From the NCBI GenBank assembly GCA_037893245.1, contig JBAIAA010000607.1:372001-436000 (forward strand): a stretch of 64,000 bases of DNA, in the 5' to 3' direction. A program made the position numbers and the translations under genes. Source of the DNA: Crossaster papposus (taxonomy: Eukaryota > Echinodermata > Asteroidea > Velatida > Solasteridae). The number at the start of each line of letters is the position of its first letter. The first letter of the stretch is position 1. The notes below the pieces were generated by a model. It saw only the letters and a program-made list of their open reading frames with translations. It was not told the origin of the DNA and made no database searches. Below, piece by piece: positions 2,474 through 59,483 of the stretch.

Positions 2474-3230
2474 AAAGGCCCGGTCCCACTGGCCGATGGA
2501 CACAAAACGTATGCATAAAGGACACAGCGGACGAGCAAAATTTAGGCCTTAAGGCCCAGTCCCACTGCACTTACGAATGCAAAGAGGATGTAAAACGGAA
2601 ACAAATCTTGCCATCCGTTGGAAAACGCTATGCGTCCGTTGTGTACTCATTGCATACGTGTTTCATACGCTCTATCCATCGAGCATCCGTCCACTGTGAT
2701 TTCATCCGCGCAAAAAGTTTTGAGCTGCACAAAACTTTTAGAACGGATGAACTTTCCGCCGTGTACGATGTAAATCCGCGACAAATACGAGCAACAAACG
2801 TTCTATGTCCGTTATCATCCGCTAAACGTCCGCTGTATCCTCTCTGCATCCTCTGGGCATCCTCGCAACTCACATCCGCTGCAGCTGAAAACGGAAAGAG
2901 AGAGGAAAGATAAGGTACATGGAACGTCTATACATCGTTAGTAGCACGGAAATAGAAAGGATGTAAGCGTATGTATCTCGTATATTATCCCCGGTAACCC
3001 CTTCGGAGCTGTCATCCACTTCCATCCGCTTTCATCCGCTAGGCTTCCGATGAACATCCGTTTAACATCCCCGCTACATACTACCCACGTCCGTTCTTTT
3101 CCGTTCTGTTTTCGAAATTTTTTGCAAATTTTGTCCATTTCTGGAGCGGATGAAAACGGATGGAGCGACCCCCGAAATTGTGCTCGTCCGCTGTGTCCTT
3201 TATGTATACGTTTTGTGTCCATACGCTATT
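2474..3230. mobile_element. Inverted-repeat element saturated with CATCC/GGATG words
   Basis: Long inverted arms are at about 2493-2543 and 3176-3222; both read GATGGACACAAAACGTATGC-like sequence in opposite orientation. A second terminal-type motif, AAGGCCCAGTCCCACTGC, at 2549-2566 matches the ends of the element at 27113-27770, so this is probably a nested or composite copy. The interior carries more than 20 variants of CATCCG, GTCCGT and GGATG in both orientations. It has no meaningful coding capacity; open frames here are by-products of the repetition. Confidence 0.6.
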
Positions 3231-8632: not shown

Positions 8633-8761
8633 CACTGCAAAAACTGCGGTGTTAAATTTAACACTTTTGGTGTTTATATTGGACCATTCGCCCAATATAA
8701 ACACCAAAGGTGTTAAATTCACACCAAAGGTGTTAAATTTAACATAGACGTTTTAGCAGTG
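8633..8761. mobile_element. Palindromic MITE built from GTGTTAAATTTAACAC
   Basis: Ends read CACTGCAAAAACTGCGG and the inverse, CGTTTTAGCAGTG. The interior repeats GTGTTAAATTTAACA and ACACCAAAGGTGTTAA, and a mirrored AATATTGG...CCAATATT core forms the loop. It is about 129 bp long. The terminal style CACT-C-AAAAAC resembles the larger element at 55191-56544. Confidence 0.65.
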
Positions 8762-9989: not shown

Positions 9990-11042
9990 CTGTGGTATTG
10001 AGAGGACAACATGAAAATATGCCATTTCAAACGAGAAAAAGGGCACTAATATCAATAGAGCTACCCACTGGATGTGAATTTGGAATTTAACGACTTAACC
10101 CCAACTTCCTAGTGTAATTTACTAGGAACCATACCCATCCTTGCAAATTCCAACACCATGTGGCAAACTGTACACACAAACTGTTGGACTCTGATTCTAG
10201 AGGTAACCCAGTGTGAAAGACAGTCGGTCTATGGGTCAATGTACTCATCCTAACAGATTCCAACAAAACCCGATGTTAGAGCTTGACTGGATGGGAATTG
10301 TTAGGGTTAATCCAGGATGTGAATTTGAAAGAGGATGTAAATTTGGAAGAGGATGTGAGTTAAAGCATTGGATGTGATTTTAGAAATCATTTGTCGAAAT
10401 CACATCCTGCTAATGAATGTCTGCTTTGAATGCAAAATCACATCATGCTACAAGCAACAATTTGCTGGTTACACTTCTGGCTGGATGGCTCATGATCAGT
10501 TGGTACAGCACTGGACATGTGTTGCACTTTAGAAGGTTCAGATCCTACCTTAGTATACATTGTTATGTTTGTTAAAGGGTAACTGAAATTAAAAACTTTA
10601 ATATGGCGAAATATACGCTTTAATAACGCTGAATACTTAACTGAAAAACTTTTTATTTGTTTAGGTTTGCTCATTAATCGTGACCCTAAAATGAAAAGCA
10701 ATATGCGCCGTGCCCCGCCCACAAAAGATGACGTCACGGTAAGAATATGGCGTGGCTATACCAGGCTAGGCCTAGCCTTGAATACAAGGCTGCACTGTAT
10801 CCGTAACGTGGGATCATCGTTTGTCATAACACCAAACGTGTACATAGCCCGCAATGCATTATTATACGTACAATGTACTTATCATACACGCACCCACGCC
10901 CCGCGCGCATGAGAACCAGCTGAGTATATATAATAATGCACGTGACCCACTCCAGGAAAAGGTGACATAAGTCGCAAACACTAAAAATAGAGTTATGTAC
11001 ATGATTGAAAAGTCCAAGATATAAGCTTTCATTTGGTACAGA

Positions 11043-18667: not shown

Positions 18668-19081
18668 CCCTAACCACCCTGAGTCCATCAAAATCCATTT
18701 CCTGTTTTGGAGGATTTTAGCTGATTCAGGATACCTCCATATTGAACAAACTGGAGGAGTGTGATGGATTGAGGATTTTAAGCCTAGCGTTACTGCAGGA
18801 GTTTGATGGATTCAGGATTCAGAAATTTAGGTGATGAACTGTGATGGACTCCATGGAGAAACACACTGCAATTTTGTGTATGCCACCTAGGTATCCTGAA
18901 TCCGCCAGAGTCCATCAACTTTTGCTGGTGGATTATTGATGGACTCAGGATATCTCCAGTACCGGTATGCATACTGGTGGAGTCTGATGGACTCAGGACA
19001 CCAGCAGTTTTTGCAAACCAAACTTGGTGGATTGTAGCGGATTCAGGATACTTTCTAGAAAAAGCAGTGAGGGGGTTAGGG
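18668..19081. mobile_element. TTAA-flanked element saturated with GATTCAGGAT/GAGTCCATCA words
   Basis: TTAA at 18664-18667 and 19082-19085. Ends CCCTAACCACC and GGGGGTTAGGG. The interior holds about ten variants of GATGGACTCAGGAT or its inverse ATCCTGAATCC...GAGTCCATCA. It lies just upstream of the first visible MED6 exon. Confidence 0.65.
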
Positions 19082-23435: not shown

Positions 23436-25471
23436 GGGGCGGCCGAGTATGTCACTGTGCACTCTGTTGAGTAAATTTGTTGGAAAAACTGTAGCTATGA
23501 TCACAACTTTTAACCGACTTCCGAAACAAGTAAAAAGAACAGGGCATATGTGATGTTTGCATTTGAAGCGGACACGGTCCTTAGCAGGATGTGATTTCAA
23601 CCAAAGATTTCAAAAATTACACCCAAATTCTCCAAATTCACATCCTTAGTCAAAATTCAAAACCCAGGATAAAGTGGATGTGAATTCAGTGGATGTTAAC
23701 TTTAGTTTTAATCTTAACGACTTAACCCAGGATGTGAATTTGAACTGGGGATGTGAATTTGGAGCATTTAGATGTGATTTTGGAAATATCTTTGGAAATA
23801 TGCTGAGGACCATGTCCGATTTGAATGCAAAATCACACCATGCTTTTTCCTAGTGTGAACTAAAGAGAGAAAACAAACAATAAAAGCTTATCCTAATTGA
23901 TTATGAATATAGTAAATATTTTACTTTTTACGTTTAAGATCTGCAATTCATGCAGTTTGTTTTCTGAAATTTATTCCGTGGTCTGCTAGGATAATAACGC
24001 TTTACTCTAAACAAAAAAACCAGAAGGTCACGCCACTGAATAGACCACAGGCTTCAATGATTTGCATTTGGGTTTTCCCCAAGATTTCATCTCTTGGATT
24101 TCCCCAACCTGTCTAAAATAGAAGTACATTGTTGTTATTATTATGGCACAATAACCAAAATGAATAACAATTTAAAACCCTGGCATATTATTACCAGGGA
24201 CCACAAACTAAGTCTGAAAAACAAATTCAAACCACGATGGGCAATATTCAGTTTTAACAAAGGATGTCAAGCAGATTTCCCCCCGAAAAAAAAATAGAGA
24301 GAGAGACAACAAAAAGTACAGATTTTTTTTTCTGATGCATATTTTAAGAGATTTTGCTACCAAAACATTTGGAGGGGTTGTGGGTAGTGCTACAGCATTC
24401 ATTTGGTATCAAAGTCGAATTCCAAACTCGTCAACCCATTTCGGTGCTTGCGGCGACACATGCATGCCGTGTATAAATACTGCTAAAATGTTCAACAAAA
24501 TTCGGTTCGTGCATGCAGAACTAACTCATGGCAGTGGCTTGCGGAATATTATAGTCAGGCAGAATGGGGCCAAATAATTGTTCACTATAAAAGCATAAAA
24601 TCTGGCACACAGTCAGAGTTTGTCACGGGAAAGATATTTGGCTGCAGAGCCATCGCAGATTTGTCTTTGGAAGAAAAACATAGTAGGTAGAATCACATGC
24701 AATGGCTTGTAATACTCTACCTATATTCTACCTATATTTTTTTCAAAGGACAAATCTGCGATGACCCTATAGCTACATATCTAACTCATGACATACTTTG
24801 ACTGCGTGCCCAAAACCATGCCTGTATCGTTTGATTGAAATGTTGTTCACCAATCTGTCTGACTAATTGGAATATTTCATCAATTCGGTTTGATCGCATG
24901 CCAACCCCATGTATATTTATGGCAGCTACTAACGGGAATATAAGAGGATCGGCATTTAATAATCTCCGACTAGGATTAGGATTCAAGTTCTGCACAGCCT
25001 CTGCTCTCTAGTGCAGTGTTGTTTTGGAGGATGGAACATGGACTTTTTAGTGGATGTGATGTTGAAGAAAGGGTAAGTGCGCGACAAGAATGTATTACTT
25101 GGCGGGATTTTTGTTCGATGCTTAAACTGATGTTTTATTATACAGGGAAATTATAAAGGTGATTCTATAGACATGCAAGTAACTATAGAACCTACCTTGC
25201 CAAAACAAATACGATTTTACTTTCACATAACAACTTAAACAAATTATACATTGGCTTCCCATATGATCGACTGATGGGCTTGGTTGTGATAGGCTATTCT
25301 CTGTCTATTTTTGGAAATGGCGTCATAGAGTTCTTCGTTTAAAAAGGATTTCCCAACTTTTTGTCAGAAATACAACTCAATTCTACCATCTGGTGCCCAC
25401 CTCGTCCATACAGTTCTCTCCTTTGTTTTTTACCCGTCAAAGATAGAATTTTGTTTGATCACGTAGTTGAT
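22800..25471. other. Intergenic region between MED6 and the galaxin-like gene
   Basis: It should contain the MED6 first exon or promoter and the galaxin promoter, but I cannot place either. It holds a T/G homopolymer (G-run about 23417-23439), the element at 23584-23842, and an inverted repeat at about 24635-24765 (GCAGAGCCATCGCAGATTTG and its inverse). A donor-like GAAGAAAG|GTAAGTG at 25072/25073 may end a 5' untranslated exon of the galaxin gene. This is speculative. Confidence 0.4.
23584..23842. mobile_element. GGATGTGAATT-saturated element, uninterrupted copy
   Basis: Ends AGCAGGATGTGATTTCAACC and the inverse-type TGCAAAATCACACCATGCT. The interior repeats GATGTGAATTTG. It contains the intact site GACTTAACCCAGG (23719-23731) that corresponds to the TTAA insertion point in the 10-kb paralogue. 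Confidence 0.65.
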
Positions 25472-25535: not shown

Positions 25536-28500
25536 GTAAGTGACTTGCAGCGAGGGTCTCTGTGACATGTTTTGTTTATACACGCTATACTCCGAAGCTT
25601 GTATGTATTTTTGTTTACAATGAGGGTGTTTCTGAGATAATCAATCGATTTGTTTAAATAGATAAAGACACATTTTGAATCGTGCAAAAACACGTTGCAT
25701 TTTGTTATGATGCTATGGGATTCGATTGTGTCATATGAAAGTCAGATTCCTGTGAAAATCGGAATCCTTTTCTAAACCCCATTATTGGTTAAACCCTCTG
25801 ACGTGACCGGTCACTCTCCTATAACTATCTTCATTTAGGCGTGTGCAATACTACAAAATGAGTCCGTATGGAATTCATGCTACACATGTCGTTATTAATG
25901 TGTGCGCATAGCCGGCATAACCATATTGGCTTGTAAAGACCCACATTCTCGATTTAATTTTCGGATCATTTTCTGTCTGATGCTCCGTTTTCGCGTGTTT
26001 GCCAAACAAATTATTGTTGCCATTTTGGTTTTATTCAGCCATTCGCCTTCATTTAACTGGAGACTTTTGTTCTGTTGTTTCGTGACATTGCTAACCGATT
26101 AAAAAAAAAGGTAGTATACACCACCAGTGGTAATTATCAGAATTATCAGAATTATCAGGAATGAGTGGATTTGCAATTGGAGGGTTGTATTTTATAGTAA
26201 ATGTCGTTTACCTGACCTGTTCAAAGTTTTACAATCATGGATGCTAAGAAAAGCAAGAAAAACGGCGTTCGTTTTCAACCGGCGTCAGGCAGTGGTTCTT
26301 ATGTTGTTCTTATGTTGTCCAACGAACAGAACTAACCAGAATGCCTGGTACATTTAATTAATTAATTAATAAAAGTAATTAATTAACTATTAAATTATCG
26401 ACAAGTCACTCCCTCTGTAGTTTTGTTTTCGTGTACGCGACGTCACACCATGGCTCGCGATTTCCAAAGACGAAATTGATTTCATTCAACTTTTTGTTGT
26501 GCATGACTAACAATATCGTGTACAATAATTATTATTATGTAAATTATTTTAGGAAGTGCTTTTTTGAAATCGGAAGTTATCACACCATTACCGTGAACAA
26601 TACCTCTTTTTAATCATTTCCCTGGAAAAGCGGAAATTGTGAAATATTCTGACGGATATAAAAAGATAATTTTTGTATTTGTATCTGATAACTATTTCGA
26701 AATTTCCATCTGCGTTCTTGTAATAACATTGTCACGAGTACATTAATAATGGGGTTGTGTCAAGTGTCCTTATCATGTAAATGACTTTAGGTTTACTTTC
26801 TGTTTCCATTCAAATAGTGCTGCAACACGTTTGATTCCCCCCGGCTATTAAAAACCGGAAACTACCTCCTTCCCCCCCCCCCCCTCACCCCGTGTGAACG
26901 AGCCCCAAAGTACGCACGCACGCGCACATGCACACAGGCGTAAATTTAAACATGAAGCGCGTTATGTGGCAGGGGAACACCCCCTCGCCCCTCTTTTGCG
27001 TTGGTCATTGTGTTCCCGGAATCTCAGGAATTCTTTTTAGGTTTTTAAGGTAGGATACACAATTTGCAGATATCAAAAAGTTTAGTATATGAAGCATTTC
27101 AAACTTATTATCTAAAGGCCCAGTCCCACTGCACTTGCGCACGATTTACTCATGAATTGCGCATAAAATTTTCTTTGTGCGTGATTCGTCAGTGATGTGC
27201 GTAAATCCCACGTGATTCACACGTGGAGCATCAGTTTTTGTAAGTGATTGTACGCGGAGACGGGTTTGTGCGCGATCGCCGGTTTTGAACGGTTCAAAAT
27301 TTTTTCCACGCACAACGTGCGCGATTATACGCAGTTTATGCGCAGTTTATGCGCAATGTACGTAGTTTGGACGTGGAAGGTGCGTGATATGTGCGTGATA
27401 TGTGCGTGTTCTGTCAGTGCGCCCTTCATCAGTGATACATGCGTGCTCCATGCGCGGACCGTACGTGATTCATCAGTGCTCGTGCGCTGTTCATGCGTGA
27501 TCCATACGTGTTACATTCGCTATACATGCGTCGATTGAACGTCAGAAATTGTATCGGGTTTGGGCTTGTGCGCTGTTGTGCGTGGAATGTTCGTTCTTTG
27601 TCAGTGATTGTAAGTGATACATGCGCAGTTTATACGCGATTCATCGGTGATTCTGACCACGCACAACCCCAGAAAATGACCAATTTCTCCACGAACAATC
27701 ACGCACAAACCAATTTTATGCGCGATTTATGCGTGATTTATGCGTCATTGGCAATGGGACTGGGCCTTAACAGAAACTGGAAGATTTTCATTACGAAAGT
27801 GGATGACAAAAACATTTAGAGCCAGTAAAACTAACCTTAAAATGTTTTTTTTTTATGACTTCAATGTAATTGTCTTGATGTGTTTGTATGTACTGAGGGC
27901 CCCAAATGATGAATATCTGCTGGATGGGCTACCCTCATTAAAGATGGTTCACGGTAAATACACAAATTGGAATGATTAGGGCTTTGAGTAAACTGTATTT
28001 TTTTTTTTTTTAATAGGTATTGCACCACTTTGCGTGAATCCGTTCACGGCTGAACCGGTGGCCTACGACCCGTCACGAGAGATGTGTTGCGGTGGCACGC
28101 TCCACGATGTACGTACCAGCACCGGACAAAACTGTTGTAAGTATACGCAATAATCAACTCGGATATCCCAATAATTTTGCTCTACCCGTCAAAATAATGC
28201 TACCCAACAACTGACGAGTTTTTTTTCCTACGGCACGAGCGGCGAGAACACGTACTATAGTGTTACGTCTGATTTTGAGTGTAATTCCACAATCCGTAAA
28301 TAGTAACCACCAGTTATTTCAAACAAGGCAGGGTTACTAAAATAAAGGGTAGGGTTAAACATGAATGCTATATTTTGTAATGGTGCCAGTGTTTTCGATG
28401 GGATGGGCTGAGTAAAGGTAACGGTAGACAAGCAGGAAGTAGTATACGAGAAAACTACACCGACTTCTAAAAACAGCAGAAGGTGAAAGATTGATGCAGG

Positions 28501-31500
28501 GAGGGGAGGAGGTGGCACGGTGATGAAGCGTGTGTGTGATACTTAAATTTTCAATCCCGTCTAGTCTTGGTTGCAAGGCGTCCTAATCGCGTAGTAGGCC
28601 GCCGATGCCGGCGCCCTCTAACGTATAGACCTCGCCATGACCTTCGTCTTGGCTAACTCACATAATCGCTCGGAAAATTCCGAGCAGAATTGTGTTGCGT
28701 GCATAATTCCGTGACGTAACAGAAACTTGACTAATGAGTCAGCGAGTATGCATCATTACGTCAAGCGACTATACACACAACATCACACGCGCAATTCTGC
28801 TCGGAATCTTTACGAGCGATTATGTCAGTTTATAGCCAAGGCGTCCTAAAGTCATGGCGTGGTCTACGGCTACGACGTGCACCCGCATATGCGGCCTACG
28901 CGCGCTACCTGTCTTTCATTAACATTTATTCCCAATTCCAACAATATACAACGAGAAATGAAAAGGAAGATGACGTCACCCAATGTGTATTGAATGACAC
29001 TGCAGTTTTTTTTGTAGCGGGGTCACCGCTCCGAGTTGACGCACGCTATCCGGCTCTTTTGTGTGACGTCATTTGAACGCGATACTGTGTATTATTATTA
29101 GTCAATGAGCGCTATATTACTCAGTGGTGCATGCCACTTCGAACCGGATACGGAATGCCGACATATAGGGTGTTATTTTTTTACTAATACACTCGGAACT
29201 ACCAATTGACCCAGAATCCGGGTCACGTGGGGCCTGGCTTTTTTTTTTCGGGTCAAAATGACAATTGCATGGGTCAGAATTACATTTTCCGGGCAAGAAG
29301 CCAAATAAGTGTCGTTTTTAACCGGAAACTTATTCCGACCTGGAAAAGAGGTCAGGCCCTGCGCGGGCCACTGGACCTGGATTACGGGTCAGTCTGACCC
29401 GGGGTCTTTCTAGAGTGTACAGGGAAAGGCTCAGTTTTACCCCTGTCCCTCGTGGAAGGTAACACGTCAAACTGGGAACGATGGTTACTAAACAGGGGCT
29501 TTCCTAAGGAGCACCGAGTCGGAGAATGAGCGTGGAAAGTGCGTGTATAGATGATGTGCCTCTGTTTACATCTGTATTCAAATGTGCTCGTCAGTATGCG
29601 CACGAATCATGTTTTACATAAATTTGGTTAAGAGATGACATCAGAGGTCACATAATTCAAAGGCGATCTGACCTGCGACGTCAGTCTTTAAGCAAATTGT
29701 ATGTAAAACATGATGGGTGCGCATCACTGCCGGGCACATTTGAATACAGATGTAAACACGTGACGTCAGAGGGCACATCGTCTATACGATCAAATTTTAC
29801 GATTCTGTGGTCCAGGTTTATTAATTTTTTTGTATCGTTTAATTTACCGCGTAATTCGGTTTTGCGCGGATTTATAATGCTCAGTGCTTCAAATCATCAT
29901 TCAATATTTCGTTCTGAGTACGGAAAAATACTCTTGGTTCGTTCGATTTAAACAAATTTTACTATCCAACTTCACAAGTGATGCTCTGCGGTAAACAGTG
30001 CGTTGTCGTCATCAATACATAATATGAGCCAAGTTCAAAAGAGGATGACGCCCCCGCCAGGAAATCTCTGTCTCAAAATGCTTAAAAATGAAAGAACTTA
30101 AGGCCGAGTTCGGGCGGTCTGTTCTTGACACGCGAACTCTTTTCTCGCGCTCGAACGGCGGGAACGCAACCCGTGAATTTTGCACTCGGAACAAGAACAC
30201 ACACCACCTATCCATCAGGGTTTTGCAAGAACAAGTTACGCGTGTCAAGAACAGACCGCCCGAACTCGGCCATAATGTCGCCACCGGCCACAGTGATGTA
30301 TTATGTTTGAAGAATGGTGGAGTTATAGAATGTAAAGACGTATCACTGGGGCTTCGACATTGACCTTTTTCTTCCAATTTTTTACAGAAATGTCGAGTAG
30401 TATATTCCATTCAGAAACGTTTATCCTTTAAACTCTATGAATGTGAACAGATAACAACAAAGGTAATAACAAAGGTGTGCAAAGTATTTGTGCTTTGACA
30501 TTGACATACAGTGTGTCCCATAGAATGTTGAGGGCTTCACAATGTTCGCGTCAACCACCCTGTGCCGTTGACATCATCGCTATATATAGTGCATTTTTCG
30601 CTATTTTAATGTACCGTAAAATTGTTTCACAGTGAGAGGCCATGACAATTTTCCGCCGTGGTATGGAAACCAACACAAAAGTTGAGGAGGGTGTATGTTC
30701 TTTGTTTAAATATAAATAGCTTATTTCGGAGAGCGTTTCTATTGACAATTCTACTTAACTGGAACTGTATAGCCCTATATATTGATGACGTTAGGCAAAA
30801 AAAACAAACCAAGTTTAGCGTCATGCCTTTTTTTTTAAAGGAAGGAGGAGGCCCTTTTTTCCCCCTTTTTTTTCTTCAAAATGGCCGCCCGACACATCTT
30901 AATTAGAGTCATGCAGTAAACATGTCACACCCTATCTTCCAATTTAAAATTAAAACATGGTTCACCCACGATTAAAACAAAAAAATTTGTGGGTCGATCA
31001 AGTATGCACCGTACACGACTACACGTCACACCCTAGCCTTCTTATTAGAACAAAATATATTTCCAGAGCATGTACACAGTTATGCTAAAGTCTAAAATAC
31101 GATCATAAAATTGTATTATCTTTAAAAAAAATTATATTTTTTTTGTTTTTTTGTTGTTGCCAAAATGGTCAAATTTATCATTTTTTCAAAAAGAAAAGAA
31201 AAAGAAAAAAGGAGGCGGCCCCCAAAAAGGAAGCGGGCGGTGACGCTAAACATTTCCACGCTCATGTTTGCCTCTGTGAGTGGCTCCCGATCCCCTGCAC
31301 GATCACCGTTTCCAGTCACGGTGACGTGTTAACTTTTACGAGTGACAGGGCTAAAAACTTATTTTCTATGTTTTTTTCGGTCGACATTCTTTACGTAAAA
31401 CGCGTCGAGCGGCGACCCTTACTGAAAAGTGCAATGTCATGCGGCAAACATTGGATTACGTCATCAATACATTATGGCTATTCCTTTTTTTGGTCTTTTT

Positions 31501-34500
31501 TCTTTTCCATTTTTTCTGTTGGTTATAAACACCTAATGAACTTTACATTGTCTTCACAATGATCTAATTTTACACTGAAGGACGATTCCCTAAAAAAGAA
31601 GTAATTTGAAGTAAGCGGGAGAGGCAAAGCCTCGTAATATACAAGTACAAAATGATGGCAAATACACGTTCATACTTCTTGCGATTGGGATCTGCGATGC
31701 GAATTTGACATCACGATTCACGAATTCGCCAGAGTCGAAATGTGTTCAACGTTTAACGTTTCCTGACGTCACCAGTAATACGCGCACTTTGTGTGGATGT
31801 GTGTGGATTGCAGGGTTGTAGTCGAGTCCCTGCAAGTCCTTTCACAAGTCCTTTCGTGAAGCCAGTCACAAGTCCCTTCATAAAGGCAGTCACAAGTAAC
31901 TAGATGAACAATGACAAAGGAATGCTTTTGTCAAAGCTGATTTGAATAGCTTGTGATTTGAATTGGAACTGAAGGACTTGTGATGGACTTGCAGGGACTT
32001 ACAGGGACTTGCAGGGACTTGTGATGGACTCGACTACATCCCTGGTGGATTGTGGAAGTTTGTTGAAATAAAAACAAATCTTTTGCATTTCTAAACAAAG
32101 TTTATAATACTCTTTCATAGACTTCCAAACACTATTACGCCGTCTTTTAAATATACTTTTCATTTCAAATACACCGCAAGGAAAACTTACATGATGTAGT
32201 TAATGCTATCAAGCCCTGTGTTGGTAGAGCACCGGAACGGCAATCCAAAGATCGCAGGTTTAAACCCCGCTCCAGTCAAATGTTTTGTTTAATTAATTTT
32301 GTTTAAATCGTTTAATTTGTTGTTTTGTTTAAAGGCGGAAATCAGATTTTTGACAATTTGTCTCACGTGTGTTGTGGCCAAGAGGCCATTCCCATCTACG
32401 ATCAAAAGCGATGCTGCCACAGAACCATCGTTTATAACTCCGAAACGCAAATGTGCTGCGGAAACAATGTGTACGCCAAATCCGATGGTAAGTGCTTATA
32501 CCCAAAACCCTGTTCCAAATTTACCTTTTAGTATTAGGCATTGCCCACTTTAAATTCTTCCCAATAAACACGCGTAGTCAGTTATAATATCCACCAACCG
32601 CGCTGCTACATCATTTTAAACAATTTGGTTGAACTTATCAACTGATTGGTAGATGTGTGTACAACCAATGATTTCAATTTTAACCAAAATAGTGGTCAAA
32701 ATAACCAATGATATTGGTCATTTAAACAAAAATATTAGTCAAAATAACAAATATTTTGGTTAAAATTGACAAATACATTTGTTGGACACAATCATATCTC
32801 AATCAATTGGTTATTTCCAACCATCCTGTTTTTAGGGTGTAGCCCATTAAGAAACTCATTGACGCAAATGTTACAGTCCCAGCACCGGATTATACGCATG
32901 ACTGCACAGCAGTAGCTGCATTGTATAGCTACACAGCGGGGAGCTGCACTGCACAGTGGACTCAGCGAGCAGCTGCCACACAGACCGTGTTTTACGGCAT
33001 AGCACGGCTAATGAGCCGCGGCAAGTTTTTGTTAACACATTTTCCGGCCTTGGTCTAAAGAGATATGGGGCTTATCATAATTATCCCCCAAACAGATTAC
33101 AACTCGTGCTGTGGCAACTACCCAATAAATGCCTTCCAGGACACGTGCTGCCGTGTGATTGGTCCTTTAGGGGTGACGTCTCTGCCAAGTAAGGGCAGAG
33201 GTCAGTGTTGTGGCCTGGACCTGACCTATGACCCCGAGACTCAGATGTGCTGCCAGGGTCAGACAGAAGATGGAATGTTGAGTGAGGTAAATTTTAAACC
33301 CATTATTGTACCATATAGGTGACCTGTCACCACAAAATGGGAGTAAAGTCGCACAATGTGATTTGGAGATATGGTCATCCAAAGTCAAAATATGAAGGAG
33401 TGGTCAATTTTAAGATTTTGCGTAATTTAGAAAGTCTAAGTCCTCCTCTACATATTCCCATTTTTGGGGTGAGATCAGATGAACGAAAACCATTTAAATT
33501 AGGCGATTTTACGTAGTGTTTGCGTAGTAAGTGTTTGGATTAAAGTCCATTAGTGGTCTAATTAACACGGTGATTAAATATGCAAATAAAATCATCGTAT
33601 TAGTATCCCACGTTTTTGAAATTTTGATATTTTGTTGTTTATACAATAGTTTGTGATAGATCTTTGCAGGAACATTTCATGCATTTAATAGTGATTGTTC
33701 ATTCATTTTAACATCGCTGAAAATCTTATTCTTCACTTCCATCACACTGAAACAATAACATTTAACTTCGTGGACATTTCTCATCAACCTTTCTTGTAAA
33801 CACTGAAACATGGTAGACTTCGCATTAAACGATTCGCAAAAAAGTATGAACGTCATTTTCGCAACGAATTAATTCGTCACATCGCGCTGCGAATGATTCG
33901 CGCCCAGTGTTCGAATTCGCACGATTACAATTCACATCGCATTCACGCCAACACGCAATGTTCAACAACTTCCATTTGCAAATATTTTTGTGCATATCCG
34001 ATGGGAAATAATTGTTCGTGTAGTCTATAGTTTGCAAACGTTGGCAGCGTTGGCAATGATCAATGTCGCCCTCTGTACATTATTGGAAATAATCCAGCAC
34101 TTCTGGAATATTGAAAGGCTCGACATAGAGTTGAATACCGCCCTCGGTGTTTGTATACAACAACTTACACTTTCTGTTTTGTGTTAAAAGAGCGGGAAAA
34201 CCCCTGACAAACCTGCTCTAGAGTCCAGTAAGAGGAAAGATGACTGTTCTTTCCACTTCAGTAATTTAGACCTCCCGAATCAACCAATACTATAGTTTGA
34301 GTCAGTGTTCTTTCGTTTTAAATCCACAAATTGTTGGTGGTTTGGATTAAGAAGGTTCTTAACAAAGACGGGCCAATCAAAAGCTTTACATTCGTAACCC
34401 AACTTTCTGCGACTCGAACCCCATTTAAATCATGCCATTCAACCAGTCATACTGCTTTCTATGGCGTGCATAGTTGACATTTAATCAAAAATAGAGATAT

Positions 34501-40500: not shown

Positions 40501-43500
40501 GTGCGACAAATGCTTAGAGTAGTATGTTAGCGAGGGCTATAGGGTGATTTCCCCAAATAAAATGTCCCCCTCCTAAATAAATAAAACCATTGTCCTGGAT
40601 CTAGGGCACGGCAGATGTTGTGGCACCCGAGCCTACCATCCCAGCACTGCCTCCTGTTGCCAAGGAGTGTTGCACGACGGGATACCCGAGGTCACCGGGG
40701 TCCAGGGATGTTGCGGCCCACTGTCCTATCTGGAAGGCGAGTCCATCTGTTGTGCCGGGGAGATTCGTGGGAAGGCACCTGGTCTAGAGTGCTGTGGCAA
40801 AGGTGAGGCGACGATAGGAGCAAGCCATCATACCGTTTATTTTGAACATTGCAACGTGAAAATAGCGCACGGCACTGTGGTCAAAACTAATTTGAATAGA
40901 CGGGAATCTTTCAAGATGATAATTATGATACCAAGATCACCCGATTTGGTCCGGTAGTTTTCATTCTAGTGGAACAAAATGGGGGGGGGGGGGGTCAATT
41001 GGACCAAGGCTGGACAGGTGATTAATAGAAGCGCGACAGCAATGAAAAAGCCTGTCCAATTGACCGCCGTATACACCATTTGCAGATATCGAAAATATTT
41101 ACTACCGAATTATTAAGAAATCATCTTACTCATGTGAAAGTAAATAATGATTCTAGGCATCTAGCAAAATAATTGCGCTAGATATCCTATAATTATTCCG
41201 AAAAATTTAATTTTATAAAGATCGCGAAAAAAACAAAGATAACATAAGAATAACTGCTCGACGCTGGTTGAAAACAATCGCTGTTTTTCGTGCTTTTCTC
41301 GGCATCCATGGTTGTAAAACTTCGGACAGGTCAGTTAAACGATATTTACTATAAAATACAACCCCCAAATCTACCCATTCATGATAATTCAAGCAATAAC
41401 CAATGGTGTATCCTATCATTGGGTATCGCATTTAAAATACCAATTAACATTATCTGACGAATTGACCCACATACTCAAACAAGCATCCTTCCACTATAGG
41501 CCTACACCGAGGCCAAAACTACATATCAATGAATCGCATAGTATTAAACTTCAGGTTCACTCCTCGTGAATATTTTTTTCGAAGCTATTGTCAAATTCGG
41601 TGCCAAATGACATTCTTATAATTTCCCCTAGATACCTTCAACAGCAACACTCACCTCTGTTGTGCCGGCAACATCCTGCCCAAATCGACGCCTGCCAATG
41701 ACGCCTGCTGCGGTCCGGCCCCCTACGACCCGAACACGGAGACCTGCTGCAACGAACGGGCATCCCCTCTCGCGGCCGGTCGGTGCTGCCACACCAAGCA
41801 CGGTAACGTGATAGCCTACGACCCCAGCAAGGCGACCTGTTGCACAGCAGGCAACAGAAAAGGTGAGAATATATTTTGTTGGGACGATATATATTTTTTT
41901 TGTTTCTCAGTGGAACAAGAAGAGGGAAATGTCTGTCTTCATTATTGACCAGTATTACATTTTGTTTCTCGATTAAGCTGTGGCAAAAAATAATCTCCCT
42001 ATTCCATGTTTTTACAAGTAACCTCATTTTTACTCTATAGTAATCCTCTAATTCCAAAGTGTTAAAGCTATTTTTTAACCTGAATCCTGCAAAATCCTCC
42101 AATATTTGTTACTGGGGACCACTGCCCGAATCCTGCAATTTCCTCCAAAATCATCTTTTTGATAAACACCTAAGTAACCTCAATCCGATGATTCAGCATC
42201 AGATCGGGCCTGATGACCTGGATCTTCCATTTCCTCCCAGAGGTAAACAATACACTAGTGCCCTCAATCCTGCAAATTCATCCGAACGTACGGATGCTTC
42301 AACTTTTAAAAACCGTCAAGCACTCCAAATTACCGTACTCCATGATGATTTTGGAGGACAGTCACATGCACCTAAAAATAAGAAGCTACAATTTTTTTTT
42401 CAATATCTTATTATACCGGGAGTTTTCCTGTCATTTTCTCCATCTCGACTTTGATCTCTTCTCATTACCACTGTTCGATTTGTAACACCTATCAACAGGA
42501 GTCTTGTATACGGAGGTATCGGCGAACGCCAGCGTGTGTTGTGGCCATTATCTCCTGGACGAGACCACGCACCTGTGCGACACCATCGCCGGGCACCCGG
42601 TCAGGAAGACTACCCCGGCTGACAACCGAGTCTGCAGCAGCACAAACTGGCGTCGATCCCGGACATATAATGTCATGACTCAGGTAATGTTACAGCCTCA
42701 GCAACCAAAATGAACCGAGCACCCAAGTTTCTCAAGAGACAGTACAGAAAAAAATTGGCAACGGTTGTGGCATGATTAAGTGACTGTTCCAACCCTTTTT
42801 GAACCGACGATCGGGGTTGGTTGCCACATGAAATTGAAGTAAACATGTTGCAAAACTTTCCGAAAATATATTGTTTTCTTTGATTGTTTAGTGGTTGGTG
42901 TAGGTAATATGAAAAATATGCAATTTAAAATACAATCGTGCGGGAGCAAATAGTAAAAATATGTCACTGTATCACAACTAAACTCGCTCAATCAGTAAAG
43001 AGAATTCTGTCGTCTGTAACTCAAGTTGGTTGTAACCGTGGAGACCAACGGTCGTAACGTTTACGTGAACGACAAACATCTCGTGGTCGTGTGTTTTCGT
43101 GCATTTAGGGTGGGTTTTCACGGGGCACGCGAACGATTTGCGAAGGATGCAAATGCCGAAAAAATGGCAAAGTCCAACATTCGTATTTTAGGCTCCAAAA
43201 GTTCGCCAAACATGCGGGGGGGGGGGGGTTCGGAAGCGCCGTCAATTGTTCGCAGGAGTCGGCGGGAATTTAGTTCGGCGGGAATTTCAAAAAAGTTTGA
43301 AATTTCTTGCGAACGTTTCCAGCACTCCGGGTCGTGATTTGCTCGTGATTTGCCCTCAAAAATGTCTTAAAAGCTTTGTCATATGCGCACGACCTACACA
43401 CGACGTGCGTGATGTTTCGCAAAATCTTCGTGAAACCCGAAACAGATTCCGACAGTTTGATGAATGTATCGCGCATGTCTCGCGAAAGCAGCGAAGTTCG

Positions 43501-46500
43501 TCCGATCATTTCTCGAGCTATTCAAGAACTGTTCGCGTACTTCTTGAGAACAGGTGACTTCGCCAAAGAACCAAACGCGAGCCTTTCGCATGGTAATCGC
43601 GCAACATATGTACAAATGTCGCATGAATGTCGCACGACGTTCATTATTCGCGAAATATGCGCGAAAAGTTCGCATGTGTCGCGAAATGTCCGCACGAATT
43701 CGTGCAACATTCGTGTTGTTCGTATTTTTGTCGCATGTTCTTCGTGTATGTGGACTGGCCATATTTCGGCAAATCTACACACGACATTCGCACATACGTT
43801 GTGAGAAACCACATTGTTGCGACACATTCGGAGAAAAACTTCTCCGAATGGTGGACTTTGCCCTTTTTTGGCATTCGCATCCTGCGCGAATCGTTCGCGT
43901 GCCCCGTGAAATCCCACCCTTAACAATGTTCCGGTCAGAAACAGCTCTTGGTTCAGAAGCGCCAAAACACGACCTAGAGCTGGCTTATTAACACCAAACA
44001 AAAATCCAAAATTAGTTACAGATTTCTCTCCGTTTGTAGGTTTGCAACCGAGGGAGAATCAGGTCCAAGAATCGCGTGGTGAACCAAAATGGCTGCGGTC
44101 CGTTCACCTTTGACCCCGACACGCAGATCTGCTGCATGGGCACGATCCATCCCAACGCGGATCCACTCGGCAATCCTCGGTTCTGTTGTCGCCACAGCGT
44201 ACGATCCTATGTGCCGGAGCACCAGACTTGCTGTAGCGGTCGGGTTGACAACATTCCATCACAGACTTCAAAGTGCGTAGAATACTGAGTCCATGTTACT
44301 TGTGTTATTATATACAGGCAGGGATGTAGTCGAGTCCATCACAAGTCCCTGCAAGTCCCTGCAAGTCCATCACAAGTCCTTCAGTTTCAATTTAAATCAC
44401 AAGCTATTCAAATCAGCTTTGACAAAGGCATTCCTTTGTCATTGTTCATCCAGTTACTTGTGACTGCCTTTATGAAGGGAATTGTGACTGGCTTCACGAA
44501 AGGACTTGTGAACGGACTTGCAGGGACTCGACTACAACCCTGTATACAGGCTTTTTTATTTATGCTTCAATGTTTTATTTCATTCTTTAAACCAAAGAAA
44601 AACCTGTTGGTATCCATAGACTGACTTCAAAGCACCGACACCAAAGTTTCTGCAAAAACAGAACCTCAAAGTTTTGAAAAAAAAGAAACCATAAAGTCTG
44701 AAAATAAAACCAAGACAGAAAACCGTCTTATTTTAACACCACAATGTTATTACTGTTTGTTGCATTTATTACTGCCACGGTGCCGCATTCAGAAGAAAAA
44801 AACATCGCAATTGCGCAGTTTTAGTGATATAATAAACTTTCTTTTTTTACACGAAACCAAATAATATCAAAAACATTTTACACAAAATAAAGTTCAGCAG
44901 CGAGCTTTAACAATAGACCTAAGCCGTAATGACGTCACGCTTCGTTTACATGTGTTCTTCCATATAGGGGCCGGGTAGTGACGAAACCCACCATGCTCTC
45001 ATGGGAAAGCGCACGTTTACACAGTAGGACGTCTAGTTTTATGACGTTTGAAACACCATTATGGTTACTTTCAGATCATTTCTAAAATATTATAGATGTT
45101 TATAAAACACAGGTTTGGCTAATATTTCCACAGAAGCATTATAATCTCACGGTTGACTATATTAAACTAACTTCCTCTTCATTTCAAGATGCTGTCGAAA
45201 CAAAGCATACAACACCGCGACGCACTCCTGTGACCGCAATGGAATGATCCGGCAAACTTTGGAGATGGGCCTTTTCCCGTTGCTGTGTGGCAGTAAGCCA
45301 TACCATCCCTCGGAACACGAGTGTTGCAGGGGTGTTCTCATCGGGCCCGGCCAGACGTGCTGCCAAGGGGCCGTTTACGAGACAAGTGACAGCCTCCTGG
45401 GTGAAGGGCGGTGTTGTGGTGGGGTCAAAGGTTACAACCCAAGTCGTGACCTCTGCTGTGAGGACTTCATACACGAAAATGTTAAACAAGGTATAGAACT
45501 TTATGAGATATCTTATTTGGCTATAATATAAACCTGCTATCTTCTGAATTTCCAAAAAACAGCTGATAAGTTTTACACAGTTTGGTTAATACCTTTTGCA
45601 ATAAACCGTTTGTTCGAACGCTCAAGTGAGTTGTTTCTACGATATTTTGAGCGAATTCGGAGATAATTCAAGTATGTTTACACATCCCTACAGCTCCTTA
45701 GTTTTTAGATAGTGGCTATTATTTTCGTGATTTTGCTGTATAGTTGGTTTACCCAGATAGCGTGTACAATCTAGGGCGCCCTCAATAAGCTCGTTTTCGG
45801 AGTATTGATGATTGATGAACTAGACTGTGCATAATGTAGACGGACGGCGCGCCCCGGAACAAATGAAAAGCACAGTCTTGGAGAAAGACTACTTGGTATA
45901 GGGAATTTTGTGTACACAGCTGAAGAGTTCCAGTCAAATATGTATATGAAAGCATTTTCGATTAAAAAAATAAAATACATATGTTATAACACAGGTCATA
46001 TACTGTAGATTAAAAATATACAGTGTCAACCTTGATACTTCCAAACGAAGTATTTTATATGGCCCCTTTACAACGCGCTTAACCCCCTACGCGACGCACG
46101 AAATTCTTTCACGAAATTCTTTCACGAAACAGCGCTAATTAGATATGCAACGCAGACCCATGCTATGAATGGGTAGTTTACTGCGCGATGCCGCTGTAGG
46201 CAATTCCTTAAGATGGTGTTCATGGCCCTAAAATATAAAATTTGATTTTGAATTCATTCACCCATTTTATTTTGTTGCATATACTGATCCCAGGTATATG
46301 GAACGGATCTTTTTAAAGAAGATTTGTTTGTATTTGGGGGAGAAATGACTGTATAGGATACACCATTGGTAATTGCTTGAATTGTCAAGAATGGGTGGAT
46401 TTGGGGGGTTGTATTTTATAGTACATAGTTTAACTGACCCGTCCAAACTGCCTTCACCTACACTTGTACTTGAGTTATTTCTTTGGTTGCTTCTCAGATT

Positions 46501-54560: not shown

Positions 54561-55190
54561 AACCGTCAATTGTATAACAAATTGAATAAGATTAATACTG
54601 CTGCAAACTGCTTACTGGCTGGAATGACCTGAAATATACAAATAAAATAAGTTAAGAGGGCCTAATATTTCGATCTTAACAAGATCTTCTTCAGAGACTA
54701 AATGACTGTGTACAAGAAACATATATAGGGCAAAATAACAAATTGAAAAGATTGAAAACTTTAAATGTACATAGGCCTACCACTATTACAAGACGTAATA
54801 AAGTGAGAAGTTTGTATTTTAGTAGATACATATTTTGTACATTTGATTGTCCACGGCCGGGAAATTTGTGGTCAATCCCATAGAGCTATATTTAATATAG
54901 CTTTATGATCATTCCCGTCCACCACCCGCCGACACAAAGTATTTACGCCACTGTTTAAATGTCATATTGAAATGAAACATGAAACCGGATGGACTGCTTT
55001 CGAATATCGTTATTACTGCAATAAAGGAAATGGAAAGTTTACTTGTCCTCGATCCAATTTATACGTTACTTTGTTTTGTTTTACCGCCCCAATTATAACT
55101 CGGCAATAGTGAAAGGTTACATCAAAAATAAACAAGATGGTACGTATATAGCAGTCAAAAATATCACCTGTTAATCTTTTCATCACCGTG

Positions 55191-56544
55191 CACTCTAAAA
55201 ACAGATTGGTTAAAAGACCAACCAATCTAATTGGTTGACCCCCATATTGGTTGTTTTTAACCAATGTGTTGGTTAAAGCGTAACCAATGCGTTGGTTGTC
55301 CGTCAACCAGTCATATTGGTTGAGCTTGTAACCAAGGTATTAACCAATATATTGGTTATTCATAACCAATATGTTGGTTGTCCTTCAACCAGTCATATTG
55401 GTTGAGCTTGTAACCAAGGTATTAACCAATCTATTGGTTATTCATAACCAATATGTTGGTTGTCCTTCAACCAGTCATATTGGTTGAGCTTGTAACCAAT
55501 TGTATTAACCAATCTATTGGTTATTCATAACCAATATATTGGTTGTCCTTCAACCAGTTATATTGGTTGAGCTTGCAACTAAGGTATCAACCAATCTATT
55601 GGTCCTATTGGTCATTAATAACCAATATGTTGGTTGTCCTTCAACCAGTCATATTGGTTGAGCTTGAAACCAAGGTATTAACCAATCTATTGGTTATTCA
55701 TAACCAATAGATTGGTTGGCCTTCAACCAGTCATATTGGTTGAGCTTGTATACAGCAACTGACCAATCAGAAGTGAGAACATTTGTTTTGACAATAGTCG
55801 ATGTTAAATTGTAGTATTTAGTCCAAAATGCACTTTTTTGGCCTTAATATGTAATTATTCAAACGATTCCATGATTGAATTTAGATTTTTGTACAAACAT
55901 AGTGAAAAATTCACATTACATTTCCTTTGTATTCAAATTTTGACATTATTCATAAAAAACTAGCTGTGACTTCGTCGTGGACAAAAAAAGCGAACTATAA
56001 AACTAACAACGGCAGTAGCTAAGTTTGTAGTAAGTGTTCAGTAGGTAATAGGTTATTATTGTATTTATGTGTATTTGCAGTGTGTAATAAGTTAATTCCA
56101 TTGGTATTATTTAATTACGTAATTTGTCCACGTAGGAACCAATACATAAAAACAACCAATAGTATTGGTTGTAGCCTAACCATTATAAATTGGTTGAATT
56201 AACCAATAATGTATTTTTGCATTTGTTATAACCAATGCAATTGGTTGCGTGTTAACCAATATGAATTGGTTGCAGCCCTACCATTATGTATGGTTAGTGC
56301 TATAACCAATATGGATTGGTTACGTGGTAACCAATACAAATTGGTTGGAGTCCTACCATTGTGGATTGGTTAAATTAACCAACATTGCATTGGTTGGTTT
56401 TATAACCAATATGGATTGGTTAAATAGGTAACCAATGTCATATTGGTTATTTTAACCAATATTTTGGTTATCCACATATCTACAACAGGATTGGTTGAAA
56501 TCGACCAATATATTGGTTATTTTCAACCAATCTGTTTTAGAGTG
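55191..56544. mobile_element. 1354-bp inverted-repeat element saturated with ATTGGTT/AACCAAT
   Basis: Left CACTCTAAAAACAGATTGGT; right ACCAATCTGTTTTAGAGTG. Between 55260 and 55750 an about 90-bp unit (AACCAATATGTTGGTTGTCC, TTCAACCAGTCATATTGGTT, GAGCTTGTAACCAAGG) is repeated about six times. Between 56125 and 56530 a different ATTGGTT-rich array runs. The central 55750-56120 is ordinary AT-rich DNA. It is absent from the other copies of the surrounding duplication. Confidence 0.8.
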
Positions 56545-57240
56545 TGGCCACGTGTTTTTCAGTGTTATTTCGTAAACGAAGCGGATTATCATTCGCCAGT
56601 GAAATAGTCTAAACATTCCTGTAGAAAATAAATCAGTAAAGGATATTTCATGTTTTGAAATTATCATTAATGACGTCTTGACAACATGTTAGAAGTGAAT
56701 CCAAACTAAAACACACACAAAAAACAGAATTTACAAATTTGTACTCAAAATAATCGAATTATCAACTGCCTACATCATTGGGACTGTATTGCCCAACGGC
56801 ATTAGGAAATGTTTACAACTGTTGGGGAATTGGACAAGTGCGTTATGGACTGCTCTTGAATAATGTGACGTGGTCATCGTTATTACAGCAATAAAGGAAA
56901 TGGAAAGTTTATGTTTTCGATCCAATTTATACGTTACTTTGTTTTGTTTTACCGCCCCAATTATAACTCGGCATTAATAGTGAAAGTACGTGGGTAACCG
57001 TATAATAGCAGTCCAAAATATCACCTGTAATCTTGTCATCACCGTGGGCCACGTGTTTTTCAGTATCATTTCGTAAACGAAGCGATTATCATTCGCCAGT
57101 GAAATCGTCTAACATTCCTGTAGAAAATAAATCAGTAAAGGATATTTCATGTTTTGAAATTATCATTAATGACGTCTTATTAACAATGTTAGAAGTGAAT
57201 CCACACTGAATAAAATAAATACATAAATATATAAAAAAAT

Positions 57241-58085
57241 ATTGCCACTTCATCATGTTTGCATAACATTAACGTTGGGGGAATTGTCAGGTCAGAGAAC
57301 TAGAGAGTATATTTGGAACCCATTCACGGACGTATTTGTTATTATAGGCATTTTGGTTATTTGGTAAATTAAAAGAAGTATTAAAAAAACGAAATGCGAA
57401 ATTCCACTTTTCTTGAAAATGATTGACAGCACACCAGGTGCTTATCGGCCAGGATGCTCGAGATTATTATTATATTATAGCCAAGTAAGATAATTCAAAA
57501 TAATTGGGTAGTTTTGTTCTTTGATGTTTTGCAAATGTTGAAAATGAGGTAAAATCTTCATATTTGGAACTAGCAGGTAGAAATAACCTAATGTTAATCG
57601 CAAATTAATACCAGTCTTTTTTAAAGAATAATTTAATATAGGCCTATGTGATTAAACATACCTTAATGTTTTAAGCCACATTAAAAAACAAATGGAAGTG
57701 AGACTAGACGCAAACAAATAGTCTGGCAACATATCATCAACAGTTCACAATTGATAAAATGTATTTAGGGAACACGACCAAAATGACTTCCTCGTGAATA
57801 AGGCCCATTACCTTTACATTTATTGTCAGGCTTCCTTCCGTCACAAATGCAGGTGTGCACTAAACAAATTCTTGACTAGAACAAAGAATTAGAGTTTCAC
57901 AACCTTTTTTGTGAACTTCCGTGTTAAGTTTTGTTTCCGATGCTTTTACGTCAGTGTCTCGTGTTGCAATTGTGTTATGATTGGTGTTTTCTTGTCTGTT
58001 CAGAGACGTTGTTGTTGGCCTTTTAAATATTTGATTTTTCACATGTCATAGTTGTAATGCAGTATGGGGATTAAAAGTTAGTTTA
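57241..58085. other. Non-coding, nothing recognised
   Basis: AT-rich, no repeats with clear ends, no coding frame of interest. Confidence 0.45.
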
Positions 58086-58164
58086 AAGGGTTGCTATCCT
58101 GTTGCACGTGTTACGATCAACACAATGAGATCACTCATGTACAGCGGGCGCAAACCGGGTGCAT

Positions 58165-58275
58165 TGGGAGAGGGGAGGGGGGGGGGTGGGGTGGGGGGGG
58201 GGGGGGGGGGGGGGGGTGGGGGGGGGGGGGGGGTGGGGGGGGGGGGGGGGTGGGGGGGGGGGGGGTCGGGGGGGA
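58165..58275. repeat. G-rich low-complexity tract, about 110 bp
   Basis: Almost pure G with scattered T. Glycine- or proline-rich open frames across it are artefacts. Its length is unlikely to be reliable. Confidence 0.9.
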
Positions 58276-59483
58276 CTAAATGGGCCCAGGTACAGTACAG
58301 CGGGAACAAGTCAGTATACATTGGAAATAACAAAAATGAGTAGTACAGCGCGCACACGGGTGCCAGGCATACTCGCAGCTATAGTGCATGCCCGGTCTAT
58401 ACCCATCACGATACGAGAACAATCACCTCCCACCCCCCCTCCCTGAAAATAAATCAGTAAAAGATATTTCATGTTTTGAAATTATCATTTATGACGTCCT
58501 TGACAACAATGTTAGAAGTGAATCCAAACTAAAAACTCACACAAAAAACAGAATTTACAAATGTTGTACTCAAAATAATCGAATTATCAACTGCCTACAT
58601 CATTGGGACTGTATTGCCCAACGGCATCAGGAAATGTTACAACTGTTGGGGAATTGGACAAGTGCGTTTAGCTTATAAACATGTTTACAAACTGATAGCA
58701 AGAAAAGTGTTTCCTCGCTAAACACAGTTTTTGAGTTGTAACGCCCCACCCCCCACCCCCCCCCTTTAAATAATCAGGGTTTTAATAGAACTTGAAACCG
58801 GATAAACTGCTCTTGAATAATGTGACGTGGTCATCGTTATTACAGCAATAAAGGAAATGGAAAGTTTACTTGTCCTCGATCCAATTTATACGTTACTTTG
58901 TTTTGTTTTACCGCCCCAATTATAACTCGGCATTAATAGTGAAAGTTTACATCGAAAGTACACAAGTACGTGCAGGGTATAATAGCAGTCAATAATATCA
59001 CCTGGTCATCTTTCATCACCGTGGCCAGGTGTTTTTCAGTATCATTTTGTAAAAGAAGCGATTATCATTCGCCAGTGAAATAGTCTAAACATTCCCGTAG
59101 AAATTAAATTAGTAAGGGATATTTCATGTTTTGAAATTATCATTAATGACGTCTTTACAACAATGTTAGAAGTAAATCCACACCGCCACCCCCCCCACCC
59201 CCCCAAAAAAAAAATATAAAATAAAATAAATAAATTTAAAAAAAAAAAAAAAACAACCCCCAGACTTTACAAATTTTGTACTCAAAGATAATCGAATTAT
59301 CAACTGCCTACATCATTGGAACTGTATTGCCCAACGGCATTAGGAAACAATGTTTACTACTTTTGAAGAAATATTTTACTCAACCATTATGTTGCGTTAC
59401 CCATCTGTTGGTCAAAGATATTTACCACTTATTGGACAATATTTTTACTCACATTTGATTATTTTTCCATTATGGGAAAACCA

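Follow-up and report, generated by a model that had tools for sequence, protein, structure and literature searches.

Word-rich inverted-repeat elements in the window

The window, by which we mean the whole 64,000-nucleotide stretch analysed, is part of contig C607 in a 1.02-Gb assembly, which was also the genome used for copy searches. Judged by eye from its gene content, the DNA is eukaryotic and animal-like. It holds the following elements; no strand is assigned unless an orientation is given.

E1, 55191..56544: non-autonomous CACTA-like element with tip CACTCTAAAAACAG and word ATTGGTT.
E1 target duplication, 55189-55190 and 56545-56546: 2 bp, reading TG, then CACTC..GAGTG, then TG.
E1 left arm, 55191..55750: 82-bp units of seven words each, 11.7 bp per word, strand mostly alternating.
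E1 core, 55751..56136: almost word-free.
E1 right arm, 56137..56544: 23 exact words, 28 with one mismatch allowed (counted on 56130-56544), with variable spacers.
E1b, 32609..32839: short degenerate relative of E1 with TA on both sides; its left end is tentative.
E2a, 31811..32044: hAT-like MITE with tip CAGGGTTGTAGTCGAGTCC, word CAAGTCC and a perfect 8-bp duplication, GTGGATTG.
E2b, 44319..44542, opposite orientation to E2a: second E2 copy with a perfect 8-bp duplication, TATACAGG.
E3, 27116..27767: tip AGGCCCAGTCCCA, word GCGTGAT, TAA on both sides; PIF/Harbinger-like by its duplication only.
E4, 43108..43919: tip GGGTGGG, word TTCGC (a 5-mer only), TTA on both sides.
E5, 2476..3225: tip AGGCCCGGTCCCAC on the left only, word CATCCGC; right limit approximate.
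E6a, 10307..10450: the part matching E6b; 10109-10310 matches another repeat.
E6b, 23544..23844: word GGATGTGA, inverted ends.
E7, 29190..29417: tip CACTC, 2-bp duplication TA.
E8, 18668..19081: tip CCCTAACC, TTAA on both sides, words TGATGGACTC and GATTCAGGAT; piggyBac-like by target only.
E9, 8633..8761: tip CACTGC, short palindromic MITE with GTGTTAAATT, flanked by TT and TA.

The limits drawn in the sequence-only reading need some correction: E2b starts at 44319, E6b spans about 23544-23844, E5 is missing its right tip and has a second tip nested at 2553, and E6a is split by another repeat. The same reading had proposed one design, with different words and target sites and hence different transposases. 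Words and sites do vary (duplications of 2 bp, 8 bp, TTAA and TAA/TTA), and the differing duplications suggest that the transposases probably differ as well. E8 is flanked by TTAA on both sides, and TTAA is the target of piggyBac. The duplication of PIF/Harbinger elements is a 3-bp TWA (PMC4482050), as found at E3 (TAA) and E4 (TTA), one copy each; two sampled loci with similar tips showed no clean duplication. We found no target duplication at the ends of E5, E6 or E9.

Word density was compared with 300 dinucleotide shuffles per element and, as background, with unmasked window stretches of equal length. In E1, AACCAAT/ATTGGTT occurs 52 times exactly (shuffle mean 4.7, maximum 7; background maximum 7), a count reached by none of 98 stretches. 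The best words of E2a (CAAGTCC, seven times; shuffle maximum 3), E2b (CAAGTCC, six; 3), E3 (ACGCACA, eight; 5), E5 (CATCCG, 11; 6), E6b (GATGTGA, six; 4) and E8 (TCCATCA, seven; 3) are likewise matched by 0 of 902, 940, 265, 225, 678 and 471 background stretches, respectively, so that all of these elements exceed every shuffle and every background stretch. Enrichment is weak in E6a (best word six times, shuffle maximum 5), E7 (GGGTCA, six; 4) and E9 (best word five; 4); dinucleotide shuffling breaks inverted tips, and small counts (4-6) in short elements are inflated because intact tips double every word. E4 is enriched only at the 5-mer level (GCGAA, 19 versus a shuffle maximum of 13), its best 6-mer merely equalling the shuffle maximum and its best 7-mer being ordinary (68 of 203 background stretches reach its count), and the word count of E1b is at background level. 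When the terminal 45 bp were removed, the top interior 7-mer occurred only twice in E7 and once in E9; with interiors free of repeated words, these two are therefore short palindromic MITEs and not word chains. Word enrichment is overwhelming in E1, clear in E2a, E2b, E3, E5, E6b and E8, weak in E6a and marginal in E4; E7 and E9 are poor examples of the proposed design.

A scan blind to this list (240-bp stretches, 20-bp steps, a peak being any 7-mer present at least five times) returned nine peaks in the window, eight of them within E9, E6a, E8, E6b, E2a, E2b and the two E1 arms. The ninth is a (TGTACA)n microsatellite at 46683-46958, with 46.5 copies and open in several frames. E3 was detected only by an 800-bp scan, and E4, E5 and E7 were missed by both. 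The interior word is also present at both tips of E1, E2a, E2b and E6b, but this does not hold for the 7-mer of E3, E4, E7, E8 or E9. Word spacings cluster at 9-15 bp in E1, 10-12 bp in E2 and 11 or 22 bp in the left arm of the coding C131 element described below; strict 10.5-bp phasing was dropped because mean-cosine scores, calculated without a null, were low in E1, E4, E6a, E6b and E8, and we retain a spacing of roughly one turn.

In a 200-kb genome sample, the same scan gave 32 peaks (18 and 14), including at least six tandem arrays with all or nearly all of their words on one strand, four E2 copies and one element with the word AGCACTT. Six peak regions were inspected, two having recognisable tips and the other four not being tied to ends. 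The notion that every word-rich stretch is a transposon was therefore not borne out, given the one-strand tandem arrays and the peaks without tips. The word-rich inverted-repeat pattern itself is real and recurrent in the genome. The sample also contains a long GCGGAGC array, C1:189301-190920 (L037-L038), mostly alternating in strand and with 77 words allowing one mismatch.

Two other repeats were seen in the window. A reverse transcriptase remnant on the minus strand at 36646-38694 consists of three same-frame open stretches split by stops, and relatives of the first open stretch carry RVT_1 (PF00078). The other is a directly repeated stretch of some 570 bp at 59762-60327 and 63434-64000, with 97% identity between its two copies.

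Anatomy and insertion site of E1

Allowing one mismatch, E1 contains 77 words, and the strand switches at 65 of the 76 neighbouring pairs; the mean word step, gaps included, is 12.4 bp and 14.4 bp for its arms. Both arms carry the same word with different spacers, and little beyond the word is common to them. Self-match offsets in the right arm (100, 125, 150, 175, 223, 250 and 326) lie near multiples of 25 bp, a periodicity that corresponds to one inverted word pair. The core holds no exact word, and only four one-mismatch words fall in 55751-56136, three within 55771-56129. This core is shared with a sister element with the word AGCACTT and with a third inverted-repeat element, both described below.

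E1 inserted into a local repeat that is present in several partial copies (window 54954-59370), with further copies at 56876-57227 and 58765-59370. The empty paralogue at 58765-59370 reads ACCGTGGCC and the filled site reads ACCGTG, E1, TGGCC, which gives a 2-bp TG duplication; compared with this paralogue, the one at 56876-57227 has one extra G at the insertion point. Target duplications of CMC elements measure 2-4 bp (PMC4482050), and here they are 2 bp in 25 of 28 E1 copies and TA for the coding element. Subterminal arrays occupy both arms of E1, the AGCACTT element and the coding element. Tips of CACTA/EnSpm elements start with CACTA, whereas E1, its sister element and E7 start with CACTC, E9 with CACTG and the coding element with CCCTTAC; we therefore call E1 CACTA-like and do not count it as a member by tip. 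The 21-nt tip of E1 had no match among viral contigs, in a search that may exclude records of this genome, and none of the nine papers containing CACTCTAAAAA concerns transposons, judged by title.

Copies of E1 in the genome

Of 2815 first-look candidates, 40 were scored, and most near-full copies listed among these 40 are 96-98% identical to the window copy. The set analysed comprised 28 copies from L001-L028, where two loci hold two copies each and L020 and L027 were dropped with their left ends out of reach. A perfect 2-bp duplication flanks 25 of the 28 (TA 12, TG 6, TT 3, CA 2, CG 1, AT 1), the exceptions being two adjoining copies in L011 and the copy in L021 (AT versus TA). The L011 pair (C441:1483700-1486800) stands head to tail, the second copy starting directly at the end of the first. 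Mean identity over the 28 copies is 99.2% and the lowest pair is at 94.6%, in a sample that leans young because it was drawn from the closest matches to the query. The E1 family is young.

The number of units varies among these near-identical copies. A marker of the 82-bp unit occurs five times in two copies, six times in nine, seven times in 16 and eight times in one; L024, scored with six units, probably has seven because one of its steps is double. Steps are mostly 82-83 bp, and the first is 71 bp in every copy but the window copy (82 bp). Private to the window copy among the 28 is a 91-bp step arising from a 9-bp duplication of one word. Single-word gains in the elements measure 9-12 bp.

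We then compared words with spacers. In the right arm of E1, 23 of 28 words are exact and spacers are 62% identical in self-alignments. Simulated neutral decay with spacers 64-72% identical left at most 11 exact words (20 runs per setting), and up to 23 remained at settings of little decay (spacers 79-87%); the simulation assumes a single 25-bp ancestor and star-like decay. Across the 28 copies, non-CpG differences from the majority numbered 18 of 10607 positions in words versus 67 of 16584 in spacers (p 0.0007), weakening to 11 of 9927 versus 36 of 15534 (p 0.035) without two divergent copies. By arm, with CpG included, the difference between words and spacers had p 0.003 in the left arm and p 0.09 in the right. 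Higher word conservation inside the units of the window copy was not significant (13 of 289 versus 15 of 194, p 0.16). These comparisons indicate, but do not prove, constraint on the words.

E2 copies gain and lose single words

E2b has exactly one 10-bp word unit fewer than E2a. The words run head to tail inside an arm and the two arms oppose each other, giving one direction change. Seven copies with both ends were found in the 200-kb genome sample and the window together, with word numbers of 5, 5, 6, 7, 8, 8 and 9 in one arm and four in the other arm of every copy. As the one-unit difference between E2a and E2b and the range of five to nine words show, words are gained or lost singly, in one arm. 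Three copies on C87 (1092695, 1094190 and 1094598; 8, 8 and 7 words, respectively) have almost identical flanks and probably descend from a single insertion by local duplication. Two of the seven 8-bp duplications are perfect, three have one mismatch, one has two and one has seven; the 8-bp duplication characteristic of hAT elements is thus seen in E2, with three of the seven copies probably being one insertion.

The sequence-only reading had proposed amplification inside the element, and this is what we see: five to eight units among E1 copies and five to nine words in one E2 arm. Tandem duplication creates words.

The same tip or core with different words

The sister element of E1 (L029:5902-7300) shares the tip CACTCTAAAAAC with E1, is flanked by TA at either end and has a core that matches the E1 core at 82-85% identity. 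Its word, AGCACTT, lies in both arms, with eight exact occurrences and 23 allowing one mismatch (shuffle maximum 10). The alignment between the two elements is confined to the core, and the arms are unalignable; exact AACCAAT is absent from the AGCACTT element and exact AGCACTT is absent from E1. In the search for its copies, 40 places were scored of 2226 first-look candidates, itself included, and all were about 100% identical, giving 39 further copies. Matches at these 40 places stop within some bases of the element ends; given this and the near-complete identity, the AGCACTT family moved very recently. An AACGTT-rich inverted chain is nested in the element (L029 ~6890-7040), and the full-length copy matches suggest that it has been copied along with it.

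Other tips also occur with more than one word. In the 8-bp class, CAGGGTTGTA goes with CAAGTCC in E2, and CAGGGTTGTA/CAGAGTTGTA with GACTCGA in an element at C1:145745-146295, whose 8-bp flanks agree at seven of eight positions. Tips of the GGCCC-GTC-CAC type accompany three words: GCGTGAT (E3), CATCCGC (E5) and ACGCTGG (C1:109473-110581); no clean target duplication was seen at the last of these.

The E1 core is also present, 88% identical, at C87:1024068-1024420 (L041, minus strand), where it lies within a third element whose inverted ends, GTTGCTATTCTTACGTGACC, are unrelated. By eye, this element has a 9-bp direct repeat, TAGTTGAGC. The core thus appears to pass from one type of transposon to another.

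We met no description of sister families with a common tip and core yet unrelated words in the open-licence literature; our searches were aimed elsewhere, and we do not claim that the pattern is unpublished.

A coding element with its own word array

CACTA/EnSpm elements are mobilised by a Transposase_21 (tnp2) protein. A genome search for this domain (PF02992) gave 27 matches, 26 of them over the cut-off, compared with none in 14 control genomes. Three of the 27 places were read in part. At the first, on C131, a 930-aa open frame carries a Transposase_21 domain of CACTA type (E 6.3e-13). The word of this element, GCAAGCTTGC, is itself a palindrome and, allowing one mismatch, occurs 33 times in the left arm and 18 times in the right (27 and 13 exactly; shuffle maxima 4 and 4), with left-arm steps often of 11 or 22 bp; none was found in the 10.3 kb tested between the arms. 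One short motif thus lies near both ends of a transposase-coding element, as in transposons with subterminal repeats. Its ends are CCCTTACAGAAA and CCCTTACGGAAA, and its tip, CCCTTACRGAAA, is unlike that of E1. C106 carries the C131 flanks without the element, the left match ending at base 380 of L052 and the right beginning at base 5285 of L050; this empty site reads AACTCAGCATAAAACCG, from which the target duplication is TA and the element measures 11904 bp. Matches bounded by the same ends were found on C278 and C474 (left) and on C267 and C603 (right). A small inverted-repeat MITE, TTAACCCTAACTCCCT, sits inside the coding element (L050:4212-4301), and similar tips bound E8 and a MITE at C1:134804-134893.

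A second Transposase_21 family (L049) encodes 846 aa and has three further copies at 98-100%; a few copies of GCAAGCTTGC lie near its right end, under the array-density threshold. At the third place (L051), no array of this kind was evident in the 5.5 kb that were read. Dense word arrays therefore belong to at least one transposon encoding a CACTA-type transposase. The sequence-only reading had suggested asking whether the word is the binding site used by an autonomous relative; this is answered in part, by another element of the type with its own word but not by a relative of E1 itself, since no paired E1-type tips were found and no dense ATTGGTT array was flagged at the three partly read places of 27, and the transposase of E1 was not found there.

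Comparison with known subterminal repeats

The sequence-only reading knew of no named class defined in this way. An unnamed class is not supported, and the idea of a unique class without precedent is rejected, since family-specific subterminal arrays are described for CACTA, hAT, MULE and foldback elements (PMC2613891, PMC10368747, PMC4763223, PMC5225508, PMC4079207); the class is therefore known in kind. What we describe looks like this architecture in an unusually extreme form, with a different word per family.

Plant CACTA elements have conserved tips and subterminal motifs that vary by family and form palindromes, recognised by TNPA in Spm/En (PMC2613891), and complex subterminal repeat arrays are frequent in CACTA elements (PMC4423477). 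Soybean Tgmt* resembles E1 in its conserved tip and in a palindromic, variable and family-specific motif in both arms (four left and 24 right in Tgmt*), and differs in its 3-bp duplication, compared with the CACTC tip and 2-bp duplication of E1 (PMC2613891). Unlike these plant elements, E1 is a MITE whose arms are taken up mostly by words, and sister families have a common core with unrelated words.

E2 is like the hAT elements Hermes and Kat1 in its CAGGG tip, 8-bp duplication and short motifs at both ends. Hermes has 17 and 14 copies of a 4-bp motif, the BED-domain site, in its two ends (PMC10368747), and the Kat1 locus contains a repeated hexamer (PMC4763223); the E2 motif is longer (CAAGTCC), is spaced mostly at 10-12 bp and shifts in copy number in one arm. 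Muta1 has nine 12-bp units whose number varies among derivatives (PMC5225508), tandem repeats occur in the ends of Tetris, and Galileo ends contain additional transposase binding sites (PMC4079207), so that all three are like the present elements in having repeated end units, variable in number among copies. The Muta1 units are tandem within 145-bp inverted repeats, whereas E1 words alternate in strand and its arms share little beyond the word. Satellites born inside MITEs, such as miDNA4 and Xstir, have been reviewed (PMC9659126) and show tandem growth inside a MITE, as here; unlike in those, the E1 unit contains several copies of one word, which recurs both in the tip and in the opposite arm. 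ATon elements were rejected as a match, their target being AT and word arrays not being described for them in the text available.

A model of bipartite ends and its alternatives

We consider it likely that these elements have bipartite ends, comprising a cutting tip and an array of putative docking sites that expands through tandem duplication and is maintained because it is used; binding, selection and co-evolution are here inferred. Each element would be a non-autonomous DNA transposon in which the short outer tip, common to related families, serves as the transposase cutting site. The inner one-word array, on either strand and about one helical turn apart, would provide docking sites for the DNA-binding part of the family's transposase or for a helper, and multiple sites may raise avidity and aid assembly of the two-ended complex. 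Tandem duplication, either of a single word (9-12 bp) or of a block of words (~82 bp in E1), would lengthen the arrays, and as long as the element is mobile its words would stay intact better than its spacers. Families would diverge as the word and its binding protein change and the tip is kept. The anatomy, the target duplications, the gain and loss of words among copies, the sister family with another word and the coding element with its own word in both arms are shown directly, and published cases in which subterminal repeats are bound by protein lend support. Counting against the model are the 7-mers of E3, E4, E7, E8 and E9, which are not at both tips, the conservation tests that were weak or not significant, the differing tip and word of the coding element, and the many word-rich peaks of the genome sample that are tandem arrays or were not tied to tips. 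The sequence-only reading had offered slippage and selection for binding sites as alternatives; these are not exclusive, as tandem gains are visible and constraint on the words is indicated. Selection for protein binding probably maintains the words.

A purely mutational origin, in which a palindromic word near MITE ends seeds slippage or unequal exchange without any binding role, is a less probable account, to which we give a small but real chance. Such chains would explain why the unit number ranges from five to eight among near-identical E1 copies and why single-word duplications are seen in E1 and E2; tandem arrays are common in the genome sample, satellites derived from MITEs are on record (PMC9659126), and the conservation test inside the window copy was not significant. 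It is harder to reconcile with the same word in both E1 arms despite differing spacers, with right-arm words that outlast their spacers, with a coding relative whose single word occupies both arms and is absent from the tested stretch between, and with tips that are kept while words differ.

Two further accounts appear very improbable. One is that the words are binding sites for host factors, giving an advantage in expression, chromatin or replication; some words look like known host sites, AACCAAT presumably resembling the CCAAT box. However, the bases immediately outside CCAAT in the E1 words carry little information, the word differs per family though the tip is common, and the arrays are subterminal on both sides. 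Equally improbable is that the inverted chains act through DNA structure, as cruciforms or foldback hairpins in excision or amplification; the strand alternation of E1 and the palindromic word of the coding element fit this, but the E2 arms are head to tail with one direction change, so within-arm hairpins are not common to the class.

Returning to bipartite ends, we tentatively suggest an extension that we rate as possible at somewhat less than even chances, namely that transposons of several superfamilies here share a modular end, in which a fixed cutting tip is combined with an interchangeable word array acting as a family-specific address. The arrays would be made by tandem duplication, and both arms could exchange theirs wholesale without loss of tip or core, as in the comparison of E1 with the AGCACTT family; new families that do not cross-react might arise through a switch of word and binding protein.

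Significance

Only a limited number of the transposons studied so far are known to carry subterminal repeats, and here a single genome presents the same design across differing target duplications. The arrays are of interest for how extreme they are, for their visible growth word by word, and for the different word of two young families with a common tip and core. Because whole words distinguish one copy from another, it is possible to trace how arrays of putative binding sites grow. In addition, the two young and abundant families have tip and core in common but not the word. The question of how end recognition changes between families thus becomes directly testable.
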